From Gammaproteobacteria bacterium (GTDB taxonomy: Bacteria > Pseudomonadota > Gammaproteobacteria > Ga0077536): DNA of 61,812 bases. Where the stretch lies: positions 1-61,812 of the forward strand of contig JACPPA010000031.1 of NCBI GenBank assembly GCA_016191285.1. The letters run 5' to 3'. Below, piece by piece: positions 4,198 to 10,126 of the stretch (positions are counted from its first letter, which is position 1; the number at the start of each line of letters is the position of its first letter). Made by a program: the position numbers and the translations under genes. The notes under the pieces were generated by a model. The model searched no databases, was not told where the DNA came from, and saw only the letters and a list, made by a program, of their open reading frames with translations.

Positions 4198-5508
4198 ATG
4201 AGTAAACCAGTTGACAGTGCGGCGGCCAATGTTGCACGCGTCGAGTCGGCGGCCGGTACCCACGAATTCCCGATACGCTCGGGAACCATCGGCCCCAATG
4301 TCATTGAAATTTCCAAGCTCTACAGCGAGACCGGTTATTTCACCTATGACCCCGGGTTCACTTCGACTGCGAGCTGCGAATCGAAAATCACCTACATCGA
4401 TGGCGATGCGGGGATCCTGCTGTACCGTGGCTACCCCATCGATCAGCTGGCCGAGCAGAGCAATTTCCTCGAAATCGCCTACCTGCTGCTCACCGGTGAA
4501 TTGCCGAGCAAGACCGAGTTCGACGAATTCGAACACGCCATCACGCACCACACCATGGTGCACGAACAATTGCACCGCTTTTTCAGCGGTTTTCGCCGCG
4601 ATGCGCATCCGATGGCGATCATGTGCGGCGTAGTCGGCGCGCTCTCGGCCTTCTACCACGACTCGACCGACATCAACGATCCGCGCCAGCGCCTCGTCGC
4701 GAGTAGGCGCTTGATCGCGAAGATGCCAACGATCGCCGCGATGGCGTTCAAGTATTCGATCGGTCAGCCCTTCGTCTACCCCGACAACGATCTCGACTAC
4801 ACCGCGAGTTTTCTCAAGATGTGCTTCGCGGTGCCGACCGCGACCTATCGGGTTAACCCGATCCTGTCGCGCGCGATGGATCGCATTTTCATCCTGCATG
4901 CCGACCACGAACAGAATGCTTCGACGTCGACCGTGCGCCTGGCGAGTTCGTCCGGCGCCAACCCGTTCGCCTGTATCGCCGCCGGCATCGCCTGCTTGTG
5001 GGGCCCCGCGCACGGTGGTGCGAACGAGGCTGCACTGAATATGCTGGTGGAGATTGGCAGTGCCGATCGCATTCCCGAATACGTCCGCAAAGCCAAGGAC
5101 AAGAACGATCCGTTCCGCCTCATGGGCTTTGGGCACCGCGTGTACAAGAACTACGACCCGCGCGCGAAAGTCATGCAGCAAACCTGTCACGAAGTCCTCG
5201 ATGAGCTCGGCGTGAAGAACGAGCCGCTGCTCGAAGTCGCGATGGAGCTCGAGAAAATTGCGCTTTCGGACGAATATTTCATCGAGAAAAAGCTCTACCC
5301 CAACATCGATTTCTATTCCGGCATCACGCTGAAGGCCATGGGTTTCCCGACGACTATGTTCACCGCGCTGTTCGCGCTGGCGCGTACCGTCGGCTGGGTC
5401 GCGCAGTGGAACGAGATGATCGAAGATCCGAGCCAGCGCATCGGTCGTCCGCGCCAACTTTACATCGGGCATACACCGCGCGATTATGTACCGCTCGCGG
5501 AGCGCTGA
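4198..5508 (+). CDS. gltA: citrate synthase (type II)
   Basis: Condenses acetyl-CoA with oxaloacetate to citrate, the entry step of the TCA cycle. The 436 residues match the large hexameric Gram-negative form. Catalytic landmarks are His272 in AHGGANEA, His313 in [14 protein letters not shown] and Asp371 in NIDFYSG. The N-terminal extension, with cysteines and a [12 protein letters not shown]-like stretch, is the region that gives NADH allostery in type II enzymes. It follows the VOC gene by 9 bp with a GAGG ribosome site, and the M20 peptidase starts 19 bp downstream. It is not next to succinate dehydrogenase genes, unlike in many Proteobacteria. Confidence 0.97.
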
Positions 5509-5527
5509 GGGCGATGGCAGGCAGCTT

Positions 5528-6979
5528 ATGAGGCGCGCGCTCTGCGGTCTGCTGGCCGCACTCGCATTCAGTACGGCGGTAATGCCGACACCCGCGGCGA
5601 GTCAGGCTAGCACCGCTCTGCCAGACACCGTTGCGAGCGATTGTCCGCGCGCGATGACCGTGGAGCCGGCGGCGGTCCAAGCGGAAGCGGTGTGCCTGCT
5701 GCGCCAGTACGTACAGATTGATACCACCAACCCGCCCGGCAATGAGCTCGCGGCCGCGCGCTTTCTGGCGGCCTTTCTACAGCGCGAAGGTATCGAGGCG
5801 GCGCTGTTCGAAGCGGCGCCGGGACGCGCCAATCTCTATGCACGCCTGCACGGGGATGGCAGCGGCAAAGCCCTGATGCTGGTCCATCACATGGATGTCG
5901 TACCGGCCAATCCCGAGGAATGGACTGCGCCGCCTTTCGCAGGTGTGGTGCGCGACGGCTATGTGTGGGGCCGCGGCACGCTCGACAACAAAGGGCCCGG
6001 CATCATGGAACTGCTGTCCTTCGTCATGCTGAAGCGACTCGGCGTGCCACTCGGGCGGGACGTGGTGCTGCTCGCGGTGGCCGACGAGGAGGAGGGTGGC
6101 GGCAAAGGTGCGCGCTATATGATGGCCGAACATTTCGACGTCTTGCGGGATGTCGAGTTTGCGTTGAATGAGGGCGGTGCCATGCTCCAGTTGGACGATG
6201 GGCGCCTGCTCTACGCCGTCGAATTCGCCCAGAAAGTGCCACTGTGGTTGAAAATCATTGCCACGGGACCGGCCGGCCACGCCGCGATGCCGAAGCCCGA
6301 GGCAGCCACGCACCGCCTGGTGCGGGCGCTCGCCCGTCTCGAGCAATTCGAATTTCCCGTGACCGTTGTGCCTGCGGTGCAATCAGTGTTCGACCAGCGG
6401 GCCGAAGCCATGGCGCCCGCCAAGCGCGCGGCCTATCGCGAACTCGCCAAGTCGCTCGCGCAACCGGCGTTTCGTGCCGAGTTTCTTAAGGATCCGCACA
6501 ACGCGGTGATGGTGCGTAACAGTCTCGCGATCACCATGCTGACCGGCAGTGCCAAGGAGAACGTCTATCCGGCGCAGGCCTCCGCGGTTGTCGATTTGCG
6601 ACTGTTGCCCGGTCAGGATCCGCAAGCGGTCGTGGCCGAGCTCGAGCGGGCGATGCACGAGCCCGAGGTGCGCGTGGAGCCGCTATTGTCCGCGACTGCG
6701 CATTCCTCGCCGCTTGACACCGTCTTGTTCAAGGCCATCACGACGCTGATTAAGCGGCACGATCCGAAAGCGCGAGTCACGCCCAATTTCATCGCCGGCT
6801 TCACCGATTGCAACACGTTTCGAGCCAAGGGCATCACCTGTTATGGCTTCATGCCCATGCATCTGCCGATGGCTGAAACCGAGCGGGTGCACGGCCGCGA
6901 CGAACGGCTCGCCATCGACTCCCTGGCGCAGGCCACCCTGCTGCTGCACGAACTGGTGCGCGAGATGGTGGGCCGCTAG
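5528..6979 (+). CDS. exported M20-family metallopeptidase
   Basis: Zinc peptidase of the M20 (carboxypeptidase/ArgE/DapE) family that hydrolyses peptide or N-acyl bonds. From the chosen ATG it has 483 residues and opens with a Sec signal peptide (MRRALCGLLAALAFSTAVMP), cleaved near the AAS motif, so the enzyme should be periplasmic. The metal sites are His121 and Asp123 in VHHMDVVP, Asp153 in GTLDNKG, and the Glu pair 187-188 in ADEEEGGG. An upstream in-frame ATG inside gltA would give a longer N-terminus but would bury the signal peptide, so I used 5528. It follows gltA closely on the same strand. Confidence 0.9.
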   Translation: MRRALCGLLAALAFSTAVMPTPAASQASTALPDTVASDCPRAMTVEPAAVQAEAVCLLRQYVQIDTTNPPGNELAAARFLAAFLQREGIEAALFEAAPGRANLYARLHGDGSGKALMLVHHMDVVPANPEEWTAPPFAGVVRDGYVWGRGTLDNKGPGIMELLSFVMLKRLGVPLGRDVVLLAVADEEEGGGKGARYMMAEHFDVLRDVEFALNEGGAMLQLDDGRLLYAVEFAQKVPLWLKIIATGPAGHAAMPKPEAATHRLVRALARLEQFEFPVTVVPAVQSVFDQRAEAMAPAKRAAYRELAKSLAQPAFRAEFLKDPHNAVMVRNSLAITMLTGSAKENVYPAQASAVVDLRLLPGQDPQAVVAELERAMHEPEVRVEPLLSATAHSSPLDTVLFKAITTLIKRHDPKARVTPNFIAGFTDCNTFRAKGITCYGFMPMHLPMAETERVHGRDERLAIDSLAQATLLLHELVREMVGR

Positions 6980-7188: not shown

Positions 7189-7707
7189 TCAGCGTGGTTT
7201 AACCGCGATGACCTCGATCTCGACCAAGGCGCCGGGCGCCACCAGCGCCGCGACTTGCACGGCGCTGCGTGCCGGTTTGTTGGGCTGCTCCGGGGTGCCG
7301 AAGAATTTCGTGTAGCCGGCCATCAGTCCGGCGAAGTTGAGTTTATTGTCGTTGCCCGGATCGGCGACCATGAACACGGTCATCTTCACGATGTCGCCCA
7401 GGCCGAGCCCGAGCCGCGCGAGCGTGCTCTTGATCGACGTGAGGGTGCTGACAGTTTGCGTTTCCATGTCGCCGTAGGCGGCAACGCTGCCCTTGGGCGC
7501 GTTCTTGTCGATCACGGAGGGCAGCGCACCGCTAACATACACCGTATCGAGATCGCCTCGAACGGTCACTGCCGAGGAGATGGGAAAGGGATTGCCGTCG
7601 GGCAGCGGCAGGCGCACGACATCGTCTGCATGAGCAGCGCCAAGGGGTAAGGTATTGAGCAGCACGCCCAAGGTTACGGTAGCCCGTCGCAAAGGATCTT
7701 TTCGCAT
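7189..7707 (-). CDS. exported RidA/YjgF family imine deaminase
   Basis: RidA-fold protein that would hydrolyse reactive enamine/imine intermediates to keto compounds. The 172 residues start with a Sec signal peptide (MRKDPLRRATVTLGVLLNTL, cleavage after AHA), unlike cytosolic RidA. The core contains DTVYVSGALP (about 54-63), SIKSTLARLGLGLGDIVKMT (about 91-110) and the C-terminal RSAVQVAALVAPGALVEIE with the conserved Arg of the active site. A good ribosome site (AGGAG) precedes the ATG. It begins 55 bp downstream of the amine oxidase on the same strand, so the two are likely co-transcribed and both exported. The pairing makes chemical sense because amine oxidases release imines. Confidence 0.88.
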   Translation of the reverse strand: MRKDPLRRATVTLGVLLNTLPLGAAHADDVVRLPLPDGNPFPISSAVTVRGDLDTVYVSGALPSVIDKNAPKGSVAAYGDMETQTVSTLTSIKSTLARLGLGLGDIVKMTVFMVADPGNDNKLNFAGLMAGYTKFFGTPEQPNKPARSAVQVAALVAPGALVEIEVIAVKPR

Positions 7708-7762
7708 TTCGTCTCCTATGGTCGTTAAAGAAACGCTGCAAAAGGCAGAGGTTCCATAAATT

Positions 7763-9328
7763 TCAGGCTTGACCAGTGCGCGCGGCGCGTTCGGCGATCA
7801 TCTCCACCACGCGCTGCGCCGACAGCACGGCGCCTTCTTGCCAGCCGGGTGTCTGGCTCAAATTGGCGGTCGCGAGATAGACGCGGCCGTCGGGCTGATT
7901 GAGCAGCTTGAAGTCGTCGGGATCGTTGCCGTCCGATCCTTCCCAACCCAGCACCCAGGGGCCAAGACTGTAGGGGATCTTTGCCCAGGTCACATTAACG
8001 CCGTTCGTGAGCAGATGCGAACAACCGGGATGCACCTGCTCGATCGAAGCCCGCGCGGCGGCGAGGCGCGCGGCCAGCGGTTTGTCGCCCAGGCGAATTG
8101 CGGCCTCGCCGTTCGCATAGGCGCCCAGCACGATACCGGAGGGCGCATGAAACCCGTGACTCGGATACCACACCAGGCCGGTGTCGTTCTTGACATAGGA
8201 GATGCCACCGTAGATCTGCTGATCTTCCCAGAAGCGCGGAGACTCAAAGGCCACCTTGAGCGAGTGATCGTATTTGATTCTCCGCAACGCAGTTTTTATG
8301 CGAGGCGATAAATCGGTGTCGATACCCGCCAGGATATTGAAGGGCAGCGTACAGATGACGTAGTGCGCCTCGACCGTGCCGGTTTCGCCGGTGGTAGTGT
8401 TCTTGTGCACGACCGTCACACCACGCTCGGCACTTCGTATGGCAACCACCGCTTGGCCGCGCTTGATCCGGGCGCCGAGTCGCGACTCGAACGCGAGAGG
8501 GATCCGATCCATGCCCCCCACCGGCTGCAGCATCGTGGCGTGCCAATCGACGAACTCGTCGAACATAATCGCGATCCACAGATCGGCATCCAGCAATTCG
8601 TGCATCGACAAGGGGTCGACCGCGACGCCCTTCCGGTCAAAGGCGCCGGGCGCGATTTTGTACCCGGCGCGCTCGGATCCGCGATATTCGCCGTCCTTGT
8701 TCAAATCGCCGTACAGGTGCAGGAATGCGATCATGCGGTCGCGATCTTCAAGCGTTAGCTGGTCGTCGAGACGCCCGCGATTGATCGCCTTGGCCAACAG
8801 CTCGGTGATATGACCGCGCGTGTCTGCCATCGCCTGACTTATGCGAAACGGTTGTCCACTATTGACGCGGTCCGAGCGCATGAAGGCGCTGCGACTCAGA
8901 TTGACTTCGGTTTCGAGTGCGACGCCGAACTTACGGCAGTAACCAAGCACCGCATGGTGATGGCTGGGGAGCCGTGCCGGCCCAGCGTTGAAGTATTCGC
9001 CTGCGGAGAACGCGCAGGCCTGCACGCTGCCGTCGGTCATTTCGATGCGTGTGTCCCGGCGTACGCTCCAGTTTCTGCCGCCGACCCGATCGCGGGCTTC
9101 CAGGATCGTGACCTCATATCCCGCCTCGCCGAGTTCCCAAGCCGAGACCAGGCCGGCAATGCCGGCGCCTAGGATAACGACGCGGGTCCCGGGTGAGGCA
9201 CGCGCAACACGCAGGGGCGCTGTAGGGCTTGGCTCACCCGTCATGCCGAGCGCACGCATCGACGCATAGGCGGCACTGAACCCGCCGACGGCGGCGATTC
9301 GTTCGAGGAATTGCCGGCGCGTGGTCAT
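7763..9328 (-). CDS. Tat-exported flavin amine oxidase
   Basis: FAD enzyme of the monoamine/L-amino-acid oxidase family that oxidises an amine to an imine with release of hydrogen peroxide. The chosen ATG gives 521 residues opening with a twin-arginine signal, MTTRRQFLERIAAVGGF. The dinucleotide-binding motif follows in VVILGAGIAGLVSAWELG with the acidic partner in VTILEARDRVGGRN. The C-terminal flavin segment is DGRVYLATANLSQTPGWQEGA-like. A longer TTG start would place 15 residues before the Tat motif and is less likely. The adjacent exported RidA gene suggests a periplasmic oxidation and imine hydrolysis unit. The substrate is not evident. Confidence 0.9.
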   Translation of the reverse strand: MTTRRQFLERIAAVGGFSAAYASMRALGMTGEPSPTAPLRVARASPGTRVVILGAGIAGLVSAWELGEAGYEVTILEARDRVGGRNWSVRRDTRIEMTDGSVQACAFSAGEYFNAGPARLPSHHHAVLGYCRKFGVALETEVNLSRSAFMRSDRVNSGQPFRISQAMADTRGHITELLAKAINRGRLDDQLTLEDRDRMIAFLHLYGDLNKDGEYRGSERAGYKIAPGAFDRKGVAVDPLSMHELLDADLWIAIMFDEFVDWHATMLQPVGGMDRIPLAFESRLGARIKRGQAVVAIRSAERGVTVVHKNTTTGETGTVEAHYVICTLPFNILAGIDTDLSPRIKTALRRIKYDHSLKVAFESPRFWEDQQIYGGISYVKNDTGLVWYPSHGFHAPSGIVLGAYANGEAAIRLGDKPLAARLAAARASIEQVHPGCSHLLTNGVNVTWAKIPYSLGPWVLGWEGSDGNDPDDFKLLNQPDGRVYLATANLSQTPGWQEGAVLSAQRVVEMIAERAARTGQA

Positions 9329-9556
9329 GCATGCCCCCGATAGTGGATCGATTTCGACGTGACAGGATGGCAATCTCGACGCGGTCCTGTCCAGGGGTCT
9401 GTGTGATGAGCTAACTGAACGTTGTCATCGTACGCGCGCCAAAACCCAAATCTGGCTGGACAGTATTAACCCTTAAGTCCGAACGGCGGCCATCGCGAAT
9501 AATCGAAACTCCGGAATCAGTTGCCCATTCATCGGTTGCAACCGCCGCTTGTGACG

Positions 9557-10126
9557 CTACGAATAGAAACGGATGCGGCGCACGCGCCATAGTCCCGTCA
9601 GGCCGAGCATCATCAGCGCGATGCTCGCCGGTTCGGGAATAGGAACTAGGCGGTCGAAGGTGCCGCTGAGGTTGTCGTAGAGCCCGTCCCCGATGCCGTT
9701 CAATCCTGCGAGATAGAGTTGCCCCTTCCATATGGGTTTGTCGGCATTGCTGGTATCGAGAAAGATCATGTCCTCGCCATGCGGATTATGCGGATTGGCG
9801 GGTTTACTAGGATCCTTGTTGGCTACCTCGGCGTCGTCAAAAAAGAGGAAAACCCCGGCGTGGCCCGCCGGTAGAAAAAGATCGTCTAACGGCAGGTCAG
9901 TGCGACCGAGGTAACGTTTCACCCCCAGCTTGTACGATTGTTCCCGGTTAAGCTCGTCCGCAGTCAGTAACTTGCCGTCGAAATAGGAATGGCGTTTGCC
10001 GTCGGCGACGAAGTAGTTCGAGATTTCGACTCCGATCGGAATCGCCGCCGCGGTGAGCGGCCAAAACAGGATACCGACCAATGTCAGTTCCAGCGCCCGT
10101 TGAACGGTGGATCGAAAACTGATCAT
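9557..10126 (-). CDS. PEP-CTERM sorted secreted protein
   Basis: A 189-residue protein with no recognised enzyme domain. It has an N-terminal signal peptide (about 1-28) and a tripartite C-terminal tail: VPIPEPASIALMM, a short hydrophobic helix, and a basic end WRVRRIRF. This is the PEP-CTERM signal processed by exosortase, so the mature protein should be exported and released or attached to extracellular polysaccharide. A ribosome site is present just before the ATG. No exosortase gene is in the window. It is separate from the neighbouring sulfotransferase on the same strand. Confidence 0.88.
   Translation of the reverse strand: MISFRSTVQRALELTLVGILFWPLTAAAIPIGVEISNYFVADGKRHSYFDGKLLTADELNREQSYKLGVKRYLGRTDLPLDDLFLPAGHAGVFLFFDDAEVANKDPSKPANPHNPHGEDMIFLDTSNADKPIWKGQLYLAGLNGIGDGLYDNLSGTFDRLVPIPEPASIALMMLGLTGLWRVRRIRFYS

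Follow-up and report, generated by a model that had tools for sequence, protein, structure and literature searches.

The lao and rid genes described here, which encode an L-amino acid oxidase (LAAO) with a predicted Tat leader and a Rid3-type imine deaminase with a Sec-type leader, probably specify an extracytoplasmic amino-acid deaminating unit. This reading draws on the gene order, the leaders present in the two sequences, the conservation of the pair, the catalytic residues and a matched leader state, all of which we observed directly. What is new is the predicted export of the Rid and the match of its leader with that of the oxidase, not the gene pair or its chemistry.

Organisation of the locus

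The window, a stretch of 61,812 nucleotides from a gammaproteobacterial contig (JACPPA010000031.1), carries the LAAO gene (PF01593, of the RoLAAO type; 521 amino acids) on the minus strand at positions 7763–9328, with its ATG at 9328; a second possible start, a TTG at 9373, is also open. Downstream on the same strand lies the gene for the Rid3-type imine deaminase (PF01042, 172 amino acids; 7189–7707). The two ORFs and the 55-bp spacing that the initial annotation had reported for an exported oxidase and a Rid were both recovered: the intergenic gap from the oxidase stop to the Rid start (7708–7762, minus strand) contains an AGGAG 5 nt ahead of the Rid ATG (7713–7717), and a consensus scan of these 55 bp found no terminator-like site. 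Strand, spacing and conservation suggest that both genes are read in one transcript.

Several neighbouring genes were also noted. Convergent to the pair, at 5486–6979 of the window, is a gene for an M20-family peptidase (assigned by Pfam) with a likely signal peptide as judged by eye, and inspection by eye showed L001 and L002, though not G213, to have an M20-like gene in the equivalent place. Such a peptidase could supply amino acids to the oxidase. Upstream of the pair, on the same strand, a gene at 9557–10126 encodes a PEP-CTERM surface protein. In the related locus L001 (388–3542), genes for an aldehyde dehydrogenase and a GMC oxidoreductase lie directly 5′ of lao and rid in an operon-like arrangement, neighbouring genes either overlapping or abutting.

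Identity and catalytic residues of the two proteins

The oxidase matched the Pfam family Amino_oxidase (E 2.6e-43), and its top solved relative was the Rhodococcus opacus LAAO (2jae; E 1.4e-84, 34–35% identity), with similarity spanning the full length. The predicted model (mean pLDDT 86, with the leader as a low-confidence segment) had a TM-score of 0.93 to 2jae_A by target length, and sequence and model both pointed to the FAD amine-oxidase fold. A monoamine or polyamine oxidase was rejected as first choice: putrescine oxidase and MAO were far weaker than LAAO in the sequence search, MAO-A appeared only at rank 50 in the structure comparison, and the arginine expected to bind the substrate carboxylate is invariant. 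This residue, Arg119 (codon at 8972–8974, minus strand; aligned with an Arg of 2jae), is presumably RoLAAO Arg84 and was R in 68 of 68 paired oxidases. The earlier label of amine oxidase therefore holds at the level of the family but is too broad, with 2jae as the top match; the protein is an R. opacus-type LAAO, predicted to oxidise L-amino acids with release of H2O2.

The second protein matched Pfam Ribonuc_L-PSP (E 3.2e-20). By sequence and by fold, its closest solved relatives are PSPTO3006 (9bka) and PFL1385 (9bkc), the top two scoring 137.8 and 114.7 bits vs 41.8 for the next Rid, and both have been assigned to Rid3 (PMC5619798). Of the previous designation as RidA-like, membership of the Rid family stands, but RidA gives way to Rid3 on the basis of these relatives. 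By sequence, the protein is a member of the Rid3 subfamily of the Rid/YjgF superfamily, with imine deaminase activity predicted from its homologues. Rid3 proteins are described as keeping the catalytic arginine and glutamate and as having an isoleucine in place of the RidA active-site tyrosine (PMC4433059). Among 83 distinct Rid3 proteins, the equivalent of the catalytic RidA arginine (Arg147; codon at 7267–7269, minus strand; aligned with the PARS motif of HI0719, 1j7h) was R in all 83. E163 was found in 83/83 and E165 in 76/83, including the window protein, with the choice of the catalytic glutamate made by eye, and I43 in 81/83, in a column whose equivalence to the RidA tyrosine is uncertain.

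Export signals of the oxidase and the Rid

The N-terminus of the oxidase, MTTRRQFLERIAAVGGFSAAYASMRALG, contains the twin-arginine motif TRRQFL at residues 3–8, and the stretch that follows has no D or E in its 11-residue h-core. R4 and R5 are invariant in 21 aligned relatives, and TatC is encoded in the genome. The leader extends over approximately residues 1–30 (9239–9328, minus strand), and these features bear out the proposed Tat signal, as a prediction of export. As a separate observation, the h-region (9245–9319, minus strand) is unusually conserved, staying near G..GG..A.Y.AM..LG among proteins that are about 35% identical. The R. opacus LAAO has a Tat leader as well (PMC5053998), and the window oxidase resembles it in its predicted Tat leader, in addition to the identity and TM-score given above.

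The Rid starts with MRKDPLRRATVTLGVLLNTLPLGAAHADD, which by eye is a Sec-type leader composed of MRKDPLRR, ATVTLGVLLNTLPLG and AAHA, with the cut site, also placed by eye, before DD. Sequence and hydrophobicity delimit a signal peptide of residues 1–27 (7627–7707, minus strand), likely cut between AHA and DD, and the N-terminus is of low confidence in the predicted model. We scored Rid leaders by the best Kyte–Doolittle mean over 11 residues and took values of at least 1.60 as exported. The window Rid reached 1.60, the lowest among the 68 Rid3 leaders scored as exported. Of the 83 distinct Rid3 proteins, these 68 had means of at least 1.60, 14 had means of 0.43 or less, and one (L022), which has a TTG start, was set by hand to exported. 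The Sec signal claimed for the Rid was thus seen in sequence and hydrophobicity, as a predicted leader that most of the Rid3 proteins found have kept. In addition, 5 of the 83, two of them close relatives, carry a lipobox, which would be a separate sign of export.

As a control, we applied this threshold to 57 other Rid-family proteins. Two passed it, in each case by way of an ATG that precedes the canonical RidA start. The upstream ATG of L033 is probably out of use. In L070, on a Bacteroidetes contig, a RidA-like gene (about 5900–6426) has, in front of the canonical start, an open segment that is very hydrophobic and may be chance or another exported Rid. A chance signal on the Rid was judged unlikely from this control, with one of its two cases unclear, and from the conservation of the leader.

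Conservation of the gene pair

A conserved neighbourhood had been named beforehand as a test of the proposal, and the pair is kept in four partly overlapping samples. Besides these samples, the named genomes gave 27 Rid3-type loci (L001–L027, the Rid3-type ones among 80 kept), with an LAAO on the same stretch in 21. The class sample of 274 genomes had Rid3 above 200 bits in 4 and LAAO above 700 bits in 3, with the Rid beside the LAAO in all three LAAO genomes; at the cut-offs of the searches themselves, 9 (Rid3) and 5 (LAAO) genomes match. In the phylum sample (398 genomes), Rid3 was found in 25, LAAO in 27 and both in 24, and all 24 pairs were on the same strand within 3.5 kb (no more than 700 bp apart in 22 cases and about 3.4 kb apart in the other 2, measured, as in the genus and acidobacterial samples, between matched parts and not between start and stop codons). 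The lao gene came first in 23 of these 24 pairs; the order is not fixed, with the Rid ahead of lao in L020, L025, L027 and G416. The genus sample (119 genomes of one genus, probably Pseudomonas) had Rid3 in 30 and LAAO in 27, all 27 LAAO matches lying at most 173 bp from a Rid3 match. Finally, among 151 genomes of an acidobacterial class, Rid3 was present in 15, LAAO in 22 and both in 15, adjacent in 14. In both G713 and G569, the match to the Rid is fragmentary.

Across the four samples, genomes with Rid3 also had LAAO in 3/4, 24/25, 27/30 and 15/15 cases, and Fisher tests of co-occurrence gave p values from 1e-6 to 4e-34, calculated with relatedness ignored and with a few genomes shared between samples (G000, G224, G391 and G545). 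An LAAO with no Rid3 match was found in 3 phylum-sample and 7 acidobacterial genomes, with such absences less certain than presences since the first pass scored part of the candidates per genome. As LAAO occurs without Rid3, the Rid is not essential. That Rid3 is rarely found without LAAO, and LAAO sometimes without Rid3, fits an accessory role for the Rid.

Matched leader state and joint leader loss

When an acidic residue in the 11-residue h-core was used as the criterion for the oxidase leader, a criterion chosen after seeing the sequences, the 68 pairs scored had both leaders in 56 cases, neither in 12 and a mixed state in none. Of these pairs, 19 come from the 21 named LAAO loci, 25 were drawn from the class and phylum sets and a further 24 from the genus sample. 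Each locus or genome contributed a single pair, and where additional copies of LAAO or Rid were present (L020, L025, L027, G416, G519 and G610 are examples), they were left unpaired. Outside the 68 are G691 and L010, which have both leaders by eye, and L002, where the oxidase start is off the contig. The acidic residue occurs in 12 of 78 distinct oxidases and is absent in 66. Plain hydrophobicity was rejected as a measure of oxidase export, as it did not separate the groups, L003 and L004 overlapping with the leaderless clade.

In the oxidase tree, the 12 leaderless pairs form one fully supported clade nested among leader-bearing relatives, and the Rid tree likewise unites the same pairs (SH-aLRT 92). 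The joint leader loss is therefore one event and has no statistical weight: it illustrates the matching rule and does not prove it. Among the paired Rids, the leader is absent only in this clade with the disrupted oxidase leader. The oxidases of the clade still have the twin arginines. Reading both N-termini in 13 further acidobacterial pairs, which are outside the 68 and from which the oxidase of G879 was left out, revealed both leaders in all of them.

Proteins with known structures fall on both sides of this division. Along its entire length and with its leader, PFL1385 is nearly identical to the leader-bearing Rid of G716, which is paired with a Tat-type oxidase, and the PSPTO_3006-like Rid of G673, also nearly identical to its counterpart, has no leader and is paired with an oxidase whose leader is charged. 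Earlier biochemistry has therefore already sampled both states.

These data also bear on whether the leaders work at all. If they were non-functional, both proteins would be cytoplasmic and the match would be due to chance or to shared ancestry, which we consider very unlikely: the leaders persist in two phyla, a lipobox is present on five Rid3 proteins while nearly all other Rid proteins examined have no leader, and both leaders have gone together in one clade. In favour of this alternative, cleavage of the leaders is predicted only, the window Rid leader is the least hydrophobic of the 68, and the h-region of the oxidase leader is conserved to an unusual degree.

Partner exchange, cytochrome c genes and solo Rid3 genes

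The window Rid clusters with the Rids of L001, G213 and L003–L007 (SH-aLRT 98). The LAAOs of L003 and L004 come from a different lineage, one that has a cytochrome c gene, and are 35–38% identical to the window LAAO; their grouping with the oxidases of the window, L001 and G213 was rejected (AU p 9e-85, for a group named after seeing the trees). From these phylogenies, it seems that a Rid3 was retained and its oxidase replaced. In L003, another gene lies between LAAO and Rid.

Such an exchange, between oxidases of this identity, argues against a fine-tuned interface, and hence against the Rid being a structural subunit of the exported oxidase whose own catalysis is secondary. This alternative, which partially overlaps with the main explanation, has a parallel in Chlamydomonas, where a periplasmic complex of an LAAO (M-alpha) with a RidA-type M-beta has been described (PMC5053998, citing older work), and the close adjacency of the genes, with lao first in nearly all phylum pairs, would fit a complex. 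We nevertheless regard it as unlikely, because the catalytic arginine is kept in every Rid3 protein, separate export routes would need assembly outside, and LAAO is also found without Rid3.

A cytochrome c gene follows the LAAO in 26 of the 68 pairs, among them L024 and L026, where it stands after the Rid. Where phylum-sample genomes have an LAAO but no Rid3 match (three cases), a cytochrome c gene always adjoins the LAAO. In L003 (911–2964), a sister LAAO lineage has a small cytochrome c gene behind lao. Tryptophan W458 of the window oxidase, which we take to be RoLAAO Trp426, is absent in 23 of the 26 cytochrome pairs (kept in G553, G610 and G637). It is retained by 41 of the 42 in which the scan showed no cytochrome, the exception being G416. 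This pattern may mark dehydrogenase vs oxidase types.

Seven genomes have a leader-bearing Rid3 that is not adjacent to an LAAO. In five of them, an LAAO lies elsewhere, and in the other two, the genome of L006 and G143, no LAAO of this type was found, a point against the main explanation. The contig of L012 ends near the Rid, which may not be truly solo. G678 and G682 have leaderless Rid3-like proteins and no LAAO match. In G736 (L172:1501–3488), a gene for a Tat-type, DAO-family flavoenzyme is followed at a distance of 77 bp by a second leader-bearing Rid3, a layout like that of LAAO and Rid with another oxidase family, and this agrees with the main explanation. Two further cases do not fit it and count against it: in L005 (3809–6534), a leader-bearing Rid3 comes directly after ethanolamine ammonia-lyase genes (EutB by Pfam), and the same arrangement was assigned in L007 by sequence likeness to L005. 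Ethanolamine ammonia-lyases are cytosolic enzymes. A rule by which a leader-bearing Rid3 always neighbours an exported oxidase was dropped, being broken by L005, L007 and other solo cases.

The existence of solo leader-bearing Rid3 genes, one of them beside a EutB gene, and of Rid3 without this LAAO in G143 and the L006 genome would be expected if the exported Rid had different imines or enamines as its targets, or some periplasmic substrate unrelated to these, with its link to the oxidase being mainly regulatory co-expression. We find this improbable, as Rid3 is nearly confined to LAAO genomes in the proportions given above, and the solo Rid3 of G736 adjoins another Tat-type flavoenzyme.

Relation to described systems

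The lao-cccA-ridA operon of Gluconacetobacter diazotrophicus (GDI2456–2454) was described in 2016; its LAAO is Tat-type and of the R. opacus kind, the authors considered it probably periplasmic and suggested that RidA assists it, and lao mutants left tryptophan largely unused, made little indolepyruvate and lost all detected IAA (PMC5053998). The window resembles this operon in having a Tat-type LAAO gene with a Rid gene (GDI2454 being compared by description), and lao and rid are adjacent and co-directional as in that cluster. Unlike the operon, the window has no cytochrome c gene between lao and rid, and no ORF with a CxxCH motif was found within the stretch scanned after lao.

The two Rid3 proteins nearest to the window Rid by sequence and fold, PFL_1385 and PSPTO_3006, are both active in vitro on imines produced by LAAO, and PFL_1385 lowers the imine signal of an LAAO (PMC5619798). 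In the same work, complementation of a ridA mutant succeeded with four of six Rids, a result that could bear on export. RidA genes, and sometimes Rid3 genes, are reported to cluster with those of FAD amine oxidases (PMC4433059). With the in vitro work on PFL_1385 and the lao-cccA-ridA operon published, clustering and chemistry were therefore already known. In Chlamydomonas, periplasmic LAO1 occurs with LAO2/RIDA, given as a gene cluster (PMC10805672); the window pair is similar in combining an extracytoplasmic LAAO, predicted in our case, with a RidA-type partner, but Chlamydomonas is a eukaryote, so the export route is different.

The idea of an exported pair is thus less new than the initial annotation took it to be (PMC5053998, PMC4433059, PMC10805672). 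Export of the Rid itself appears to have received less attention. In the available text of PMC5053998, "signal peptide" occurs twice, in connection with methods and with the LAAO and never with RidA; that of PMC5619798 has no word beginning with "periplasm" or "signal", and that of PMC4433059 has neither "periplasm" nor "signal peptide". No mention of a Rid leader, of its match with the oxidase or of the joint loss was found in the accessible parts of these three papers and of PMC10805672. Likewise, we recognised no statement of an exported bacterial Rid among the papers listed for this subject, a body of literature represented mostly by titles and abstract openings and including few subscription journals.

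Discussion

We propose that the LAAO would fold with FAD in the cytoplasm and then be exported by Tat, and that in the periplasm, its presumed location, it would convert L-amino acids, its likely substrates, to imino acids. The electrons would pass to oxygen, an acceptor that we infer because no cytochrome c gene follows the window lao, unlike in sister lineages. Rid3, exported by Sec to the same compartment, would speed hydrolysis of the imino acids to keto acids and ammonia, and the expected benefit of doing so in the periplasm would be less damage and a higher yield of keto acid. Imines also hydrolyse without a Rid, which we counted against this explanation. The oxidase and Rid steps are each supported experimentally in homologues, and the two would act jointly in the periplasm. 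The earlier proposal that an exported Rid clears oxidase-made imines outside the cytoplasm is accordingly supported at the level of predicted export and of the conserved neighbourhood and Rid leader.

For the family as a whole, it seems fairly likely that Rid3 represents, for the most part, an exported branch of the Rid proteins, dedicated to partnering flavin amino-acid oxidases outside the cytoplasm and switching compartment with the oxidase. The leaderless clade offers a ready comparison, and both PFL_1385, with a leader, and PSPTO_3006, with none, already have a structure and in vitro activity. Bacterial Rid proteins have been treated as guards of cell metabolism, and among the sources available to us in part, only PMC5053998 connects such a protein with a periplasmic oxidase. 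If export of the Rid is conserved, reactive imines would be managed outside the cytoplasm too. There, bacteria would convert free amino acids to ammonia and to keto acids, among them the auxin precursor indolepyruvate, and, if Rid3 is indeed mainly an exported branch, bacterial imine damage control would extend from the cytoplasm to the periplasm.
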